A stretch of DNA of 25,000 bases from a virus: positions 1-25,000 of the IMG/VR virus record IMGVR_UViG_3300046511_000166; one strand, given 5' to 3'. A program made the translations under genes and the position numbers. Below are positions 3,159-25,000 of this stretch, piece after piece. Within the stretch, counting starts at the first letter, position 1; each line of letters begins with the position of its first letter. The notes under the pieces were generated by a model. It did no database searches and had not been told where the DNA came from. It saw only the letters and a program-made list of their open reading frames with translations.

Positions 3159-3332
3159 TCATCGTCTCGCTTCTGCTTCGCTGACTAGCCTGGCGAGCGT
3201 TTCCTCGAGCGCGTCGAGTTCGTCGCTGGCGGCGCGGAGGTCGTCCAGCCGCAACAACAGCGTAACGTAATTGCTGTTCGGGACGGAGGTGACGCGGGCG
3301 TCGAAGAGGCGGCGCAGGGCGACGGTTTTCAT
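3159..3332 (-). CDS. Small helical protein beside cassette 2
   Basis: 57 residues, MKTVALRRLFDARVTSVPNS, then NYVTLLLRLDDLRAASDELD and ALEETLARLVSEAEARR. Residues 28-55 make a strongly amphipathic, heptad-like helix. The ATG at 3332 lies only 11 bp from the left arm of cassette 2, so minus-strand transcription through the cassette, or from its arm, would lead straight into it. No good ribosome site is visible. Function unknown. Confidence 0.5.
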   Translation of the reverse strand: MKTVALRRLFDARVTSVPNSNYVTLLLRLDDLRAASDELDALEETLARLVSEAEARR

Positions 3333-17781: not shown

Positions 17782-18123
17782 ATGCCGTTCGACGGATTCC
17801 CCCCCGGGCTACTCTCGGATCTCGCCGCCCTGAAGGTCGCCCTGGCCGGCGTCAGGACCGGCTGGCGGACTGGCGCCCTCGGCATCGAGGGCAAACACTG
17901 CGCGCTGGGCTGGCTGCTGCACGCCGCCGATGGCAACGCGAAGATCGCCACCCGCCTCGCCGTCGACTACGTCTGGCCCGCGCTGCCCGAGAGCGCTCGC
18001 AAGGGCAAGGACACCCGGATCGAGGCGATCTACCGCTACAACGACCACTGGGGCCACGCGAACACGATCAAGGTGTTCGACCGCGCCGTCGAACTGGCCG
18101 AGGCGAAGGCTGGCGGTGTCTGA
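17782..18123 (+). CDS. DUF6197-like protein
   Basis: 113 residues with a strong AGGAGG site 10 nt upstream. Matches to the DUF6197 pattern are GIEGKHCALGWLLHAADG (residues 34-51, the CA.G motif) and the terminal YRYNDHWGHANTIKVFDRAV (residues 84-103, the ND...H....V..F..A motif). These proteins are frequent in alphaproteobacterial phages and have no known function. It overlaps the sigma-like gene by 8 bp, so the two are co-translated. Confidence 0.65.
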   Translation: MPFDGFPPGLLSDLAALKVALAGVRTGWRTGALGIEGKHCALGWLLHAADGNAKIATRLAVDYVWPALPESARKGKDTRIEAIYRYNDHWGHANTIKVFDRAVELAEAKAGGV

Positions 18124-18886
18124 CATCGAGGACGCGCTGATCTGGCGCCTCGATGTGCGCCAGGCCGCGCGTCAGCTCAAACCGCGCGAGCGGGGCATGC
18201 TCACCCGCTTCGTCCGGGGGGACACCGCCACTGACATCGCCCGCGCTGACGGCCTGAGCCGGGAGAGGGTCGGCCAGATCCTCGCCACCGCCGGCCACCG
18301 CCTGCGCCACGCCCTGCGCTCGCCGCCGGGCTTCGACCGCCCGGCCTTCCTGGATCACATGGCCCGCCTGCTCGAGGCCCGACGCATCCAGCGCGAGCAA
18401 GAGGCGCAATGGGAAGCCGCCCGCGAGGCGCGCGAACGCGAAGCCGAACGCTACTCCGAGGAACGCCGGTTCCAGCGCGACCTCGACGCGATGCGCGCCC
18501 TGATCGAGCGCGAGGGGCCAGCGAAATGGATCGTGCCCGCGGAGGCGGAAATCGAGGTCGACGCCATGCTGGCCTTCGCCTCGGCCCTGGCGTCGAAACC
18601 GCCCCCCCCCAAGCCCAAGCCGCCCGAGTGGCTGCGCCTGCTCTACATCCCCGAATCGGATCGCGCCGACCAACAGAAGCGCAGTCTCGCGCTTCTTCTT
18701 GAGCAGGAATTCATCCGCCGCGGCGCCGGCCCGCTCATCCCCACCAATCCCGACGCCGCCGAGCAACTCGCCAGTCTCAGTCCCGAAGATCGCGCGATGG
18801 CGAAATACAACTGGTACGCGGTCAACCTCGACGCCATGTTCAGTAAGTTCCCCCCCTACCCGGGCAAGGTCTACTTCGATCCTTGA
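18116..18886 (+). CDS. Sigma-70 region-4-like HTH protein
   Basis: 256 residues from GTG 18116. Residues 20-67 read as sigma region 4: LKPRERGMLTRFVRGDTATD, IARADGLSRERVGQILATAG, HRLRHAL, with the GLSRERVGQI recognition helix typical of -35 binding. No region 2 is present, so it cannot be a complete sigma factor. Residues 80-130 are a long charged helix (ARRIQREQEAQWEAAREARE), followed by a Pro-rich hinge encoded by a 9-C run (18602-18610), then a C-terminal helical domain. It could be an anti-sigma or appropriation factor or an HTH activator for late genes. It sits just upstream of a NusG-like gene. Confidence 0.6.
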   Translation: MSDIEDALIWRLDVRQAARQLKPRERGMLTRFVRGDTATDIARADGLSRERVGQILATAGHRLRHALRSPPGFDRPAFLDHMARLLEARRIQREQEAQWEAAREAREREAERYSEERRFQRDLDAMRALIEREGPAKWIVPAEAEIEVDAMLAFASALASKPPPPKPKPPEWLRLLYIPESDRADQQKRSLALLLEQEFIRRGAGPLIPTNPDAAEQLASLSPEDRAMAKYNWYAVNLDAMFSKFPPYPGKVYFDP

Positions 18887-18901
18887 CATCCCGTTGATGT
18901 C
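18883..18901. promoter_or_regulatory. Inverted repeat before the NusG-like gene
   Basis: GACATC-N5-GATGTC (18885-18901) overlaps TTGACA (18883-18888). At 17-18 nt further on the -10 would be GAAATC/AAATCC, which is poor. The dyad begins on the stop codon of the sigma-like gene and may be an operator or an activator-dependent promoter. Confidence 0.35.
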
Positions 18902-18918
18902 GCGCGAAATCCCAAGCC

Positions 18919-19461
18919 GTGGGACTACCAAAACCACAGGGATCGGTTCCCAATCGGGACACCGGGGCCTGCGGTAGCCATTCAAAATCCATACAATGGC
19001 TCTGCATATGGACCCGACCAAATCAAGAGCAAATCGCTCGCGAACAACTGGAAAACCAAGGTTTTCCGGTGTTCCTGCCCATGCTTGAGCGCCGCCTGCC
19101 AAAGAACCAGGCTCGTATCGAGCCATTGTTCGCGCGTTATTGTTTCAGCCGCCCCGTCGAGGGACGATGGGCGCCGATGCGTTCCACCCGCGGCGTGGCC
19201 GATGTCCTGCGCGATCCCGCCGGTCAGCCCTACTGGCTTTCCCAAAACACCATTGACGACCTCATGGCACGCCTCGCCGTCGAGCCTGTCCGTCTCCCGT
19301 CCTACGCCCCCGGCACCCGCCTCCGCGTCCTGGATGGCCCGCTGGCCACCTTCACGGGCACCGTGGTAGCTGACGCCGGAGAACGCGTCCGCCTCCTCCA
19401 CAGCCTGTTCGGACGCGCCACCGAGAAGTGGTACCAGCCAGAAGACGTGGAAGCAGCGTGA
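18919..19461 (+). CDS. NusG/RfaH-like transcription elongation factor
   Basis: 180 residues. NGN domain at 27-120: QWLCIWTRPNQEQIAREQLE (26-45), NQGFPVFLPMLERRL (46-60), then PLFARYCFSRP (69-79), the hallmark alternating strands and helices of NusG N-terminal domains. KOW domain at 129-177: PGTRLRVLDGPLATFTGTVV and a short beta-barrel. Specialised NusG paralogues such as RfaH or LoaP ride on RNA polymerase to suppress termination across one long operon. The only in-frame start before the domain is GTG 18919, which adds a 26-residue extension and has no good ribosome site. Placed directly before the packaging genes it probably aids late transcription. Confidence 0.8.
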   Translation: MGLPKPQGSVPNRDTGACGSHSKSIQWLCIWTRPNQEQIAREQLENQGFPVFLPMLERRLPKNQARIEPLFARYCFSRPVEGRWAPMRSTRGVADVLRDPAGQPYWLSQNTIDDLMARLAVEPVRLPSYAPGTRLRVLDGPLATFTGTVVADAGERVRLLHSLFGRATEKWYQPEDVEAA

Positions 19462-20248: not shown

Positions 20249-20416
20249 ATGTCTAAGGTCGAACAAATCGCCACCATCCTCGGCAACGCGAGATCAGCCG
20301 GCGGCATGACAGACGAACAAATCGCCGCCAATATCGTCGCCGAACTGAAACTCGTGGACGACGCACCCAAACACGCCGAACCCGCGCACAACACCAAGGC
20401 GGATAATAAAAAGTGA
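20249..20416 (+). CDS. Small helical protein, related to the next gene
   Basis: 55 residues (MSKVEQIATILGNARSAGGM, TDEQIAANIVAELKLVDDAP) with ACGGAG 7 nt before the ATG. The core GG-(M/W)-x-DE-xx-AA-x-I recurs in the next gene, suggesting an old tandem duplication. It is coupled to that gene by a GTGA overlap. Function unknown. Confidence 0.55.
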   Translation: MSKVEQIATILGNARSAGGMTDEQIAANIVAELKLVDDAPKHAEPAHNTKADNKK

Positions 20417-20589
20417 GCCAAACCCTACTCCAACGCATTACCCACCTGATCGAGCAACAGCGCATCCAGGGCGGCTGGGACGATGAACTCGTCGCCGCCA
20501 AGATCCTCGACCTCGTCAGGCGCGACGAACAAGCCGACAAGGTCACCCTGATCGAGGGCGACCCTCCCGAAACCGTGCAGGCGGTGTGA
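20413..20589 (+). CDS. Small helical protein, related to the previous gene
   Basis: 58 residues from GTG 20413 (MSQTLLQRITHLIEQQRIQG, GWDDELVAAKILDLVRRDEQ). It shares an I-x(n)-GGWDDELVAAKILDL-like core with the preceding protein's GGMTDEQIAANIVAEL. The two may form a heterodimer or be redundant copies. It ends 3 bp before the terminase small-subunit start. Confidence 0.55.
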   Translation: MSQTLLQRITHLIEQQRIQGGWDDELVAAKILDLVRRDEQADKVTLIEGDPPETVQAV

Positions 20590-20592
20590 AAC

Positions 20593-20985
20593 TTGGGGCG
20601 ACCATCAAAATTCACCGAGGAACTGGCGAATGAGATTTGCCGCTTGCTGATCGAGGGCAAAAGCCTGCGCGATATCTGCTCCGACAAGGCGTTTCCCGAT
20701 CGCCTAACGGTTATACGATGGAAGAACGAAAACGAATCGTTTCGTAGCCAGTATGTGCGCGCGAGAGACGATCAAGGCGACACTTATGCTGATTTAAGCT
20801 TGCACTCCGCGACGACGATTGAAGACGCCGCGAAGGCTCGTCTCGCTTATGACGCTTACAGATGGTACGCGGGTAAACTTAAGCCCGGCACCTACGGCGA
20901 CAAGGTTCAACACGCCAACGCGGCGGGTGATGGAGACGTGACGATACAGGTCGTGAAGTTTAGTTCCAAGAGCAAAACGGAGTGA
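20593..20985 (+). CDS. terS: Terminase small subunit
   Basis: 130 residues from TTG 20593, the only start that retains MGRPSKFTEELANEICRLLI. Residues 1-60 form the DNA-binding HTH (GKSLRDICSDKAFPDRLTVI, RWKNENESFRSQYVRARDDQ), and residues 80-105 the signature ARLAYDAYRWYAGKLKPGTY followed by GDKV. TerS binds pac/cos and stimulates the large subunit. The coding sequence is visibly lower in GC than its neighbours, a possible sign of separate origin. The next gene begins 2 bp after its stop. Confidence 0.85.
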   Translation: MGRPSKFTEELANEICRLLIEGKSLRDICSDKAFPDRLTVIRWKNENESFRSQYVRARDDQGDTYADLSLHSATTIEDAAKARLAYDAYRWYAGKLKPGTYGDKVQHANAAGDGDVTIQVVKFSSKSKTE

Positions 20986-20987
20986 CC

Positions 20988-21206
20988 ATGCTGCACGCTT
21001 CGACGTTCGAATACCTGAAGCCGACAGACGACCAAATGGACCACATGGCCTATGTGCGGGCGGCTTTTGCTGAGTTCACGTCGCATATCGGCGTCCATAT
21101 CCCAGAGGGTCCAGACAAGACCTACCTGATGCGACAGCTACGCGACTGCGCGATGTGGGCCAACATCGCGATCACGCGCAATCCGGACGGGTCACCACGA
21201 ACGTAA
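20988..21206 (+). CDS. Acb2/Tad1-like small helical protein (candidate anti-immunity sponge)
   Basis: 72 residues, starting MLHASTFEYLKPTDDQMDHM. FEYLKPTDDQ, a long helix (AYVRAAFAEFTSHIGVHIPE), then GPDKTYLMRQLRDCAMWANI and AITRN match what I recall of the small phage family named for the Acb2/Tad1 hairpin (N-terminal F.Y..P, final L..A.MWAN.AI.R motif). Acb2 and Tad1 bind and sequester the cyclic nucleotide messengers of CBASS and Thoeris immunity. Members of the wider hairpin family are mostly untested. It lies between terS and terL and overlaps terL by 52 bp. The family call is from motif memory; the activity is inference. Confidence 0.6.
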   Translation: MLHASTFEYLKPTDDQMDHMAYVRAAFAEFTSHIGVHIPEGPDKTYLMRQLRDCAMWANIAITRNPDGSPRT

Positions 21207-22498
21207 CGATCCCTAACGGTTGGGTACCCAACGACTATCAAATGCCGCTCTGGGACCACCTGGAGGGCGGCGGCAAACGCGCCGTCGCCGTGTGGCACCG
21301 ACGCGCGGGCAAGGACTCCGTCGCTCTCAACTGGACCGCCGCCGCCGCGCACCAGCGCAAGGGCACCTATTGGCACATGCTGCCAACCCAGGCGCAGGCG
21401 CGCAAAACGGTGTGGGACGGCATCGATCGCGCGGGCCGCAGGATGATCGACCAGGCGTTCCCGCCCTCGATCCGGATCAATCATCGCAAAGACGAAATGA
21501 AGATCGAACTGAAGTGCGGTTCGGTCTGGCAGCTCGTGGGCAGTGACAACTACAACGCGCTGATCGGCGCCAACCCGGTCGGCGTGGTGTTCAGCGAATA
21601 CTCGGTCGCCGACCCCGCCGCCTGGGACTACATCCGACCGATCCTCGCCGAAAACGGCGGGTGGGCGGTGTTCATCTACACCGCGCGCGGTCGCAACCAT
21701 GGCGCGCTGCTTTACGAAATGGCGAAGGGCAACCCCTCGTGGTTCGCCCAGCTACTGACGGTCGATGACACCCGGGTGATCGGCCCCGATGTCATCGATG
21801 AGGAGCGCGCCGCCGGCATGTCGGAGGACATGATCCAGCAAGAGTTTTATTGCAGCTTCAGCGCCGCCCTGGTGGGCGCCTACTACGGTCGACAGATGTC
21901 CGACGCCGAGAAGGAAGGCCGCATTGGCAACGTCCCTTACGAGCCGAACCTTCGCGTCGAGACATGGTGGGATCTGGGTGTCGGCGACAGCACGGCCATT
22001 TGGTTCGTGCAACGATATCAGCGCGAGATCCGCGTGATCGACTATTACGAGATGAGCGGCGAGGGACTGTCGCATTACGCCAAGGTTCTGCAAGCGAAAC
22101 CATACGTTTACAGCCGTCACATCGCGCCGCACGACATCGAGGTGCGCGAATTCGGCACCGGCAAGACGCGCCGCGAGACCGCCGCGGGTCTCGGCATCCG
22201 GTTCATCCTGGCGCCCAACATCGGCATCGAGGACGGCATCGACGCGGTGCGCGCCATGCTGCCTCGATGCATGTTCGACATAAAGAAATGCGAACGCCTG
22301 ATTGAGGCTTTACGGCAATACCGCAAGGCGTGGGACGACAAGAACAGGCGCTTTCAGGACCACCCGCACCATGACTGGGCCTCACACGCCGCCGACGCGG
22401 GTCGTTACGGCGCCGTGACGCGCGACCCGGCCACCGAGACGCGACCGCGCGTGCCGGTGTTCGAAACGCATGACGCGGGCATGGGGATGCTGGGATGA
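21155..22498 (+). CDS. terL: Terminase large subunit
   Basis: 447 residues from GTG 21155, the last start before the conserved IPNGWVPNDYQMPLWDHLEG (19-38). ATPase: adapted Walker A HRRAGKDS (48-55, K53) and Walker B VVFSEYS with catalytic E148. RNase H-like nuclease: WWDLGVGDST (D273), APHD (D327) and HPHHDWASHAADAGRY (D407). Together they make the usual three-acid metal site. It packages DNA into the prohead using ATP and cuts the concatemer. GTG is inside the preceding gene, so synthesis of the two is linked. Downstream overlaps the membrane-protein gene by 4 bp. Confidence 0.92.
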   Translation: MGQHRDHAQSGRVTTNVTIPNGWVPNDYQMPLWDHLEGGGKRAVAVWHRRAGKDSVALNWTAAAAHQRKGTYWHMLPTQAQARKTVWDGIDRAGRRMIDQAFPPSIRINHRKDEMKIELKCGSVWQLVGSDNYNALIGANPVGVVFSEYSVADPAAWDYIRPILAENGGWAVFIYTARGRNHGALLYEMAKGNPSWFAQLLTVDDTRVIGPDVIDEERAAGMSEDMIQQEFYCSFSAALVGAYYGRQMSDAEKEGRIGNVPYEPNLRVETWWDLGVGDSTAIWFVQRYQREIRVIDYYEMSGEGLSHYAKVLQAKPYVYSRHIAPHDIEVREFGTGKTRRETAAGLGIRFILAPNIGIEDGIDAVRAMLPRCMFDIKKCERLIEALRQYRKAWDDKNRRFQDHPHHDWASHAADAGRYGAVTRDPATETRPRVPVFETHDAGMGMLG

Positions 22499-23468: not shown

Positions 23469-25000
23469 GTGAGCGACGTTCTCGACGCTCTCCCGCGCGC
23501 CGTCGCGGATCTGATCGCGCCGCACCTCGGCGGCGAGGAGGACAGCCCGACGCTGGCCGCGATCGGCGTGGAGATCGGCGCCAAGCGCGACGAAGCCAAA
23601 ATGGCGCGCAAGATGTCGGGCATCGAGGACGCGTGGCGCGCCGCTGACGAAGCCTACGAGGGCATAGACGACGCGAACCGTGGCGAGGTGGGCGACGGTG
23701 GACGCTGGGCCAAGCCGATGAGCGTGGATGGCCCGCTGATGACGGAGCGCAGGAACAGGAACCCAGACCACCGATCGACCGCGTTCCTGCGGCTCACCTC
23801 GCGCTATGTGGACGCGGGCGCGGCGAAGCTGGGCGAGATCCTGCTGCCCGCCGACGACAAGGCGTTCTCGTTCCGGGCGATGCCGGTGCCGCGCCTGATC
23901 AAGGCCAAGGAGGACACCAGCCAGGTCGTCCACGGCGACATGGGCGTGCCGCTGACGCGCCCGGCGCAGCCCGGCGAGACCGGCGCGCCCGCTGCCCCAC
24001 CCGGCGCACCACCAGCCGGTGGCGACCCCATGGCGGCAGCCGCCGCGGCGTTGCAGGCTGGCGGGCAACCCGCCCCAGGCGCCACGCCAGGCGCACCGCC
24101 ACCGCCAGCGGGCCAACCCGGGCAGGCGCTGACACCGCCGGGCACGCCGCTCGCCCCGGCCTCGCCCACGCCGCCAGGGCACGTCCCGCTGACGGTCAAG
24201 GACCTCGCCGTCGAAAACATTCAGATGGCGGACGAGAAGGCCAAAGCGGCTGAGACAAGGATCTATAACTGGCTGCTGTCGTGTCAGTATCGCGGCGAGA
24301 TCCGCAAGGTGATTTTCGACGCCGCGCGCATTGGCGTGGGCGTCCTGAAGGGTCCGACGCCGCGCACCAAACGCGTGATGGCGTTGACGAAGCAACGCCA
24401 CGGCGAGGACCTTAAGGTCATCATCAAGGACACCATCCAGCCGGCGGCGGTGTGGGTGGACCCGTGGAACATTTTCCCCGACCCCGCGTGCGGTGAGAAC
24501 ATCCACGACGGCAGCTACATCTTTGAGCGCGACCACATGTCGGCGCGGCAAATCCGCAAGCTTAAGAGCCTGCCCGGTTATATCGGGGACGCGATCGATC
24601 AGGTGCTGGATGAGGGACCGAACAAGGCCTACCGGTCGGAGACCGATCGCGGTCCCGGGTCGAAGCGCGACAAGGATCGTTTCGAAATCTGGTATTTCCA
24701 GGGCACGCTGACCAAGGAGGAGATGCGCGCGATCGACATGGCCTCGGGCCGCGATCCTTACACCGACGAAGATGCCGAGAACGACAAGCGCGACGAGGTG
24801 TTCGTGATCGTGACGTTGATCAACGACACGGTCATCCGCGCCACGATCAATCCGCTCGACAGCGGCTCGTTCCCGTATAACTCCATGCCGTGGCAGCGGC
24901 GCGCCGAAAGCTGGGCCGGCGTCGGCGTGGCGGAACAGATGCGGACGCCGCAACGCATGGTCAACGCCGCCGTTCGGGCGTTGCTCAACAACGCGGGCAA
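23469..25000 (+). CDS. Portal (head-tail connector) protein, 3' end beyond the window
   Basis: 510 complete codons from GTG 23469, still open at the edge. Recognisable portal segments are IEDAWRAADEAYEGIDDANR (52-71), a clamp-region stretch WVDPWNIFPDPACGENIHDG (329-348), YIFERDHMSARQIRKLKSLP (350-369), and FPYNSMPWQRRAESWAGVGV with AEQMRTPQRMVNAAVRALLN (469-507). These resemble the P22-like portal family. Residues 164-238 are a Pro/Ala/Gly-rich low-complexity insertion between two conserved parts, not usual in the family. The portal forms the dodecameric ring through which TerL pumps DNA. Confidence 0.85.
   Translation, partial: MSDVLDALPRAVADLIAPHLGGEEDSPTLAAIGVEIGAKRDEAKMARKMSGIEDAWRAADEAYEGIDDANRGEVGDGGRWAKPMSVDGPLMTERRNRNPDHRSTAFLRLTSRYVDAGAAKLGEILLPADDKAFSFRAMPVPRLIKAKEDTSQVVHGDMGVPLTRPAQPGETGAPAAPPGAPPAGGDPMAAAAAALQAGGQPAPGATPGAPPPPAGQPGQALTPPGTPLAPASPTPPGHVPLTVKDLAVENIQMADEKAKAAETRIYNWLLSCQYRGEIRKVIFDAARIGVGVLKGPTPRTKRVMALTKQRHGEDLKVIIKDTIQPAAVWVDPWNIFPDPACGENIHDGSYIFERDHMSARQIRKLKSLPGYIGDAIDQVLDEGPNKAYRSETDRGPGSKRDKDRFEIWYFQGTLTKEEMRAIDMASGRDPYTDEDAENDKRDEVFVIVTLINDTVIRATINPLDSGSFPYNSMPWQRRAESWAGVGVAEQMRTPQRMVNAAVRALLNNAG

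Follow-up and report, generated by a model that had tools for sequence, protein, structure and literature searches.

Acb2 is a homo-hexamer with dinucleotide and trinucleotide pockets that binds cyclic nucleotides and defends phages against CBASS; T4 Acb2 also activates Panoptes. Each Acb2 protomer combines a short helix with two long antiparallel ones (PMC10419184). T4 Acb2 no longer binds cyclic dinucleotides once Y8 is mutated to Ala (Y8A), and its F82 is stacked against the ligand (PMC12657218); the change T68M makes the ligand affinity lower (PMC12657230). Tad1 (Thoeris anti-defence 1) is laid out with an N-terminal antiparallel β-sheet domain (PMC12043709).

Here we describe a small gene of this hairpin family in a soil phage. 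The window is the whole stretch of DNA that was analysed, 25,000 nucleotides of the record IMGVR_UViG_3300046511_000166 (positions 1 to 25,000). With moderate confidence, we read the gene as short stand-alone Acb2/Tad1 hairpin cargo, whose product would sequester a nucleotide immune signal and block CBASS, Thoeris or related signalling.

The gene between terS and terL

The hairpin gene is real. A first, sequence-only reading of this DNA had called a 72-residue product, and its open reading frame is confirmed on the plus strand (Table 1), with GTG 20982 as an alternative start. The F.Y..P and MWAN.AI.R motifs of that reading are present and conserved in 65 distinct relatives, found on viral contigs and in a single Rhizobiales genome, which keep the same residues. 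An alignment of 30 relatives has 19 invariant columns. Outside the central segment, the alleles at the packaging locus differ by dN of 0–0.02 versus dS of 0.14–0.56, so the frame is not a chance one.

The placement between the terminase genes was also read correctly. The gene order is terS, hairpin gene and terL, with an Sf6-type terS (PF20901) upstream, and a terL of phrog_2 downstream; the hairpin-gene ATG follows the terS stop after a gap of 2 bp.

Table 1. Coordinates of the hairpin gene, its central segment and the surrounding genes in the window
Feature	Position	Strand	Details
Sigma-70 region-4-like gene	18116–18886	+	Upstream in the same operon; PF04545 3.6e-5, slightly below the cut-off
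NusG-like gene, possible antiterminator	18919–19461	+	Upstream in the same operon; PF02357 6.3e-12
terS, small terminase subunit	20593–20985	+	TTG start; PF20901 Sf6_terminase 6.1e-30; phrog_1482 7.9e-34
Acb2/Tad1 hairpin-family gene	20988–21206	+	72-codon ORF, ATG start, TAA stop; helices 4–10, 14–35 and 42–63; key residues Y9, R24, R49 and T63
Central allelic segment of the hairpin gene	21039–21107	+	Codons 18–40, covering most of the first long helix; exchanged among phages
terL, large terminase subunit	21206–22498	+	phrog_2 1.8e-23; probable non-AUG (ACG) start at 21206
Portal protein	23469–25000	+	Runs off the window; PF23899 2.3e-7; phrog_1216 5.2e-10

Late expression, to which the gene had been tied, holds as far as position goes. 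The gene lies in a dense same-strand operon behind the sigma-70 region-4-like and NusG-like genes, and no promoter-like site was found within the operon. These two genes stand in this order right before the late operon (18116–19461) and are a possible phage late switch and antiterminator.

Just before terS (20249–20589) lie two small ORFs, 55 and 58 aa long, which give no confident family match and are kept in the related loci L066 and L073. Far upstream, on the minus strand, the window encodes a 223-aa protein with a signal-like N-terminus (1754–2422; cluster 24), which has no PHROG match. Its relatives adjoin the hairpin gene in other phages (L071, L069 and L062).

The 3′ end of the gene had been placed inside terL, and this is mostly a start-codon artefact. 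The overlap rested on GTG 21155 as the terL start, which is ruled out by an in-frame stop directly after it in five relatives with 99% identical TerL (L014, L015 and L022–L024). The first ATG of the frame, at 21242, would drop the conserved P..W..R.YQ start of TerL. Because the GTG is excluded and this ATG would truncate the protein, a non-AUG start is the likely one. It would be ACG 21206, whose first base is also the last of the hairpin-gene TAA stop; the window has the string TAACG here, as has each of the 11 near-identical loci. The overlap is then probably of one base.

In six other TerL relatives (L153, L156, L158, L162, L168 and L173), ATAG stands where the upstream start is expected, and an ATG is either absent before the conserved segment or found only at its first residue. 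Non-AUG coupled starts may recur in the TerL family.

Family, predicted fold and pocket residues

The protein is a member of the Acb2/Tad1 hairpin family, as the sequence-only reading had it. Its match to the Pfam profile PF24729 (Acb2_Tad1_hairpin) scores 28.6 bits, with the curated gathering cut-off at 27, and each of the 30 aligned relatives matches the profile too, at best with E 6.9e-13. The phrog_1454 profile is matched near full length (E 2.9e-11). A search of NCBIfam gave no match.

The AlphaFold2 monomer is all helical with a mean pLDDT of 93.3. Helices 14–35 and 42–63 form an antiparallel two-helix hairpin modelled at a pLDDT of about 97, and the short helix 4–10 ahead of it is an Acb2 feature. 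The model is without the N-terminal antiparallel β-sheet domain of the Tad1 type, so the 72-aa protein is predicted to be Acb2-like in build. Foldseek against BFVD returns top matches named Acb2/Tad1 hairpin at a probability of 1.0, although the best E is a modest 0.009.

Comparisons with solved proteins are less telling. Foldseek against the PDB found nothing significant, with CbTad1 chains in the noise only (E 3.7–8.4); this search is uninformative because a small hairpin has little fold signal. When solved structures were searched by sequence, neither the protein nor the 30-row profile found an Acb2 or Tad1 chain, and the sole match was a designed helical bundle. Direct profile comparison is weak, with probabilities of 19% against T4 Acb2 and 1% against PaP2 Acb2.

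Short and weak profile alignments match Y9 to the Tyr and R24 to the Lys of PaP2 Acb2; in T4 Acb2, the counterpart of R49 is T68 and that of T63 is F82. Y9, aligned also with Y8 of T4 Acb2, is conserved in 61 of the 65 relatives. R24 is invariant (65/65) and takes the basic position 15 residues after the Tyr, which is Lys in both solved Acb2 proteins. K26 of the Pseudomonas phage Acb2, the Lys at this position, contacts the ligand too. The Tyr is followed 15 positions later by a basic residue in T4 and PaP2 Acb2, in 61 of the 65 proteins here and in 11 of the 12 diverse family members taken from genomes of Rhizobiales, a fixed spacing with which the weak pocket alignments agree.

The two T4 positions of ligand affinity, T68 and F82, are not kept, and their replacements R49 and T63 are found in 63 and 61 of the 65 subfamily members, respectively. 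By the alignment, PaP2 Acb2 does not keep F82 either, so these positions do not strictly define Acb2. The putative pocket thus has one key residue kept, one conservatively changed and two differing yet nearly fixed in the subfamily. With both T68 and F82 replaced, the signal specificity may differ. The natural reading of these residues is a putative sponge with a different preferred signal.

The same pocket might instead be kept for another purpose, a housekeeping signal (c-di-GMP or ppGpp-like) or a host regulator, which would make the protein a host-takeover factor and not a defence antagonist. The distinct R49 and T63, the Arg invariant where the solved proteins have Lys, and a C-terminal DGSPR tail that is nearly invariant in the subfamily and not seen in T4 Acb2 all suit such a role, and few PF24729 members are characterised. 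We regard it as unlikely. To our knowledge, every characterised member of the family is an immune-signal sponge; moreover, the swapping of helix-segment alleles and the roaming among phages, described below, resemble anti-defence cargo.

Distribution of relatives and swapping of alleles

The position of the gene exactly between terS and terL, together with the probable translational coupling to terL through the one-base overlap, could suggest an accessory packaging protein, for example a coupler of TerS and TerL or a modulator of the terminase, with the hairpin as an oligomeric scaffold. Its relatives make this very improbable. Genes were called around the 65 loci, and their neighbours were clustered and annotated. 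In 23 loci, a placement recurring across five TerL groups, terL is no more than 2.5 kb away. Another 16 have genes of replication or recombination nearby (exonuclease, Sak4, DNA polymerase and primase), and 26 lie elsewhere, including beside a major head protein gene (L063) and a tail-fibre gene (L078), so that 42 of the 65 stand against a packaging role.

Of 25 long-contig lineages, which were collapsed by hand, 7 have terL near versus an expected 3.4 (p about 0.04); this enrichment is weak, and part of it stems from a bias in the recognition of viral contigs. The maximum-likelihood tree has few columns and leaves many forks unresolved. It requires 14 changes to account for the packaging-linked members, and their forming a single clade is rejected (p-AU 1e-53).

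TerL relatives at ≤73% identity have no hairpin-gene homologue in the stretches examined. In two distant ones with the same TerS type, terS directly overlaps or abuts terL without the hairpin gene, which also speaks against a packaging role. The phage lineage of the window has gained the gene between its terS and terL.

The alleles at the same locus share 47–63% DNA identity in the central segment, whereas the flanks are mostly 93–100% identical. In the window, L066 and L073, all at the packaging locus, the terL starts are 97–99% identical and the hairpin-gene ends nearly so, while codons 18–40 diverge. The hairpin gene of the window shares 90–97% identity with L058 in the central segment, and L066 shares 87–97% with L063. 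Both L058 and L063 belong to other phages, in which the gene lies in the head region amid unrelated flanks. Between alleles, the synonymous divergence of the segment is near or at saturation. The central segments are old alleles that recombination has exchanged.

The hairpin allele also changes while the terminase stays. L127 (= L072) and L129 (= L073) have different hairpin alleles with 99–100% identical TerS and 99% identical TerL, which argues against co-evolution with the terminase. A terminase accessory would be linked to terS and terL and co-evolve with them; here the single clade is rejected and the alleles vary independently. Allele swapping is as expected for an arms-race gene.

As a separate observation, L128, whose terS ends at 3280, has a TerS only 68% identical to that of the window with a 99% identical TerL; terS has been exchanged in the lineage too.

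Having close relatives at many sites in other phages, the gene probably travels as anti-defence cargo rather than belonging to the packaging machinery. That it is a chance or degraded functionless ORF, as its shortness and an ORF finder that permits overlap with the long terL frame might allow, is refuted by the conservation across 65 distinct relatives, the 19 invariant columns in 30 rows and the near-zero dN outside the central segment.

Proposed function and comparison with known systems

The sponge function of the hairpin protein is likely, if putative. Like Acb2, the 72-aa protein would assemble into a hexamer, and this putative hexamer would sequester a nucleotide immune signal, block CBASS, Thoeris or related signalling and protect the phage. 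As cargo inserted between terS and terL, the gene would be expressed with the late operon; the central helix segment that it exchanges with other phages perhaps sets the signal specificity. No CD-NTase of the SMODS family, the CBASS cyclase, was found in the one bacterial genome with a close relative, a result that carries little information.

The sequence-only reading had considered the packaging placement odd for an anti-immunity protein and suggestive of another function. The latter is unsupported, as the subfamily adjoins terminase, replication or recombination, head and tail-fibre genes, its packaging members are not one clade, and its alleles vary independently of TerS and TerL. Nor need the placement be odd. 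In staphylococcal phages, the RNA that activates the CBASS cyclase is transcribed from terS–terL, including their boundary (PMC10686824), and staphylococcal Thoeris senses the major head (capsid) protein (PMC11312562). With such triggers, a late or structural placement is compatible with anti-immunity.

By analogy, we hypothesize that phages with a sponge gene next to their terminase or head genes would produce the sponge together with the triggers. At the terS–terL boundary here, no unusual RNA structure was found as a signature of trigger RNA (z −0.95). A further-reaching proposal is that this is a sponge subfamily with its own pocket chemistry (R24 and R49), carried preferentially beside trigger genes (the terS–terL boundary and the major head protein gene), where antagonist and trigger would be co-made and the central helix cassette exchanged to track signals. 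We hold it as rather doubtful.

Acb2/Tad1 sponges have so far been tested from few phages. A compact and widely transferred soil-phage subfamily with swapped helix alleles offers natural variants for mapping the signal specificity. Its recurrent terminase proximity raises the question of whether a sponge is co-expressed with the RNA region that triggers CBASS in staphylococcal phages.

Among the known systems, Acb2 (anti-CBASS 2; T4 Vs.4 and PaP2 p26) shares with the hairpin protein the PF24729 family, the short N-terminal helix before two long antiparallel ones, the ligand-site Tyr with a basic residue 15 later, and carriage by tailed phages; T4 Acb2 shares also the C-terminal MWA-type helix. 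The hairpin protein differs from Acb2 in its size (72 versus 88–94 aa), a much shorter linker between the long helices, the changes of Lys to Arg (R24) and of T68 and F82 of T4 to R49 and T63, and a TRNPDGSPR C-terminal tail, and its pairwise similarity to the solved chains is undetectable. Tad1, such as CbTad1, has a two-helix hairpin and by name belongs to the same Pfam hairpin family, but has the β-sheet domain and about 120 residues.

The protein also resembles PHROG 1454, an unannotated cluster, over nearly its full length. Proteins named 'Acb2/Tad1 hairpin domain-containing' in actinophages and lactococcal phages (for example, of Lactococcus CHPC971 and Mycobacterium Pharaoh) are 33–35% identical over 60 residues, and the Lactococcus member has the same Y-x14-R spacing. 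Unlike the gene in the window, those of the actinophages and lactococcal phages adjoin early or unannotated genes, that of Pharaoh being next to thymidylate synthase. What is new here is a hairpin-family member with a distinctive pocket and an instructive mobility pattern.
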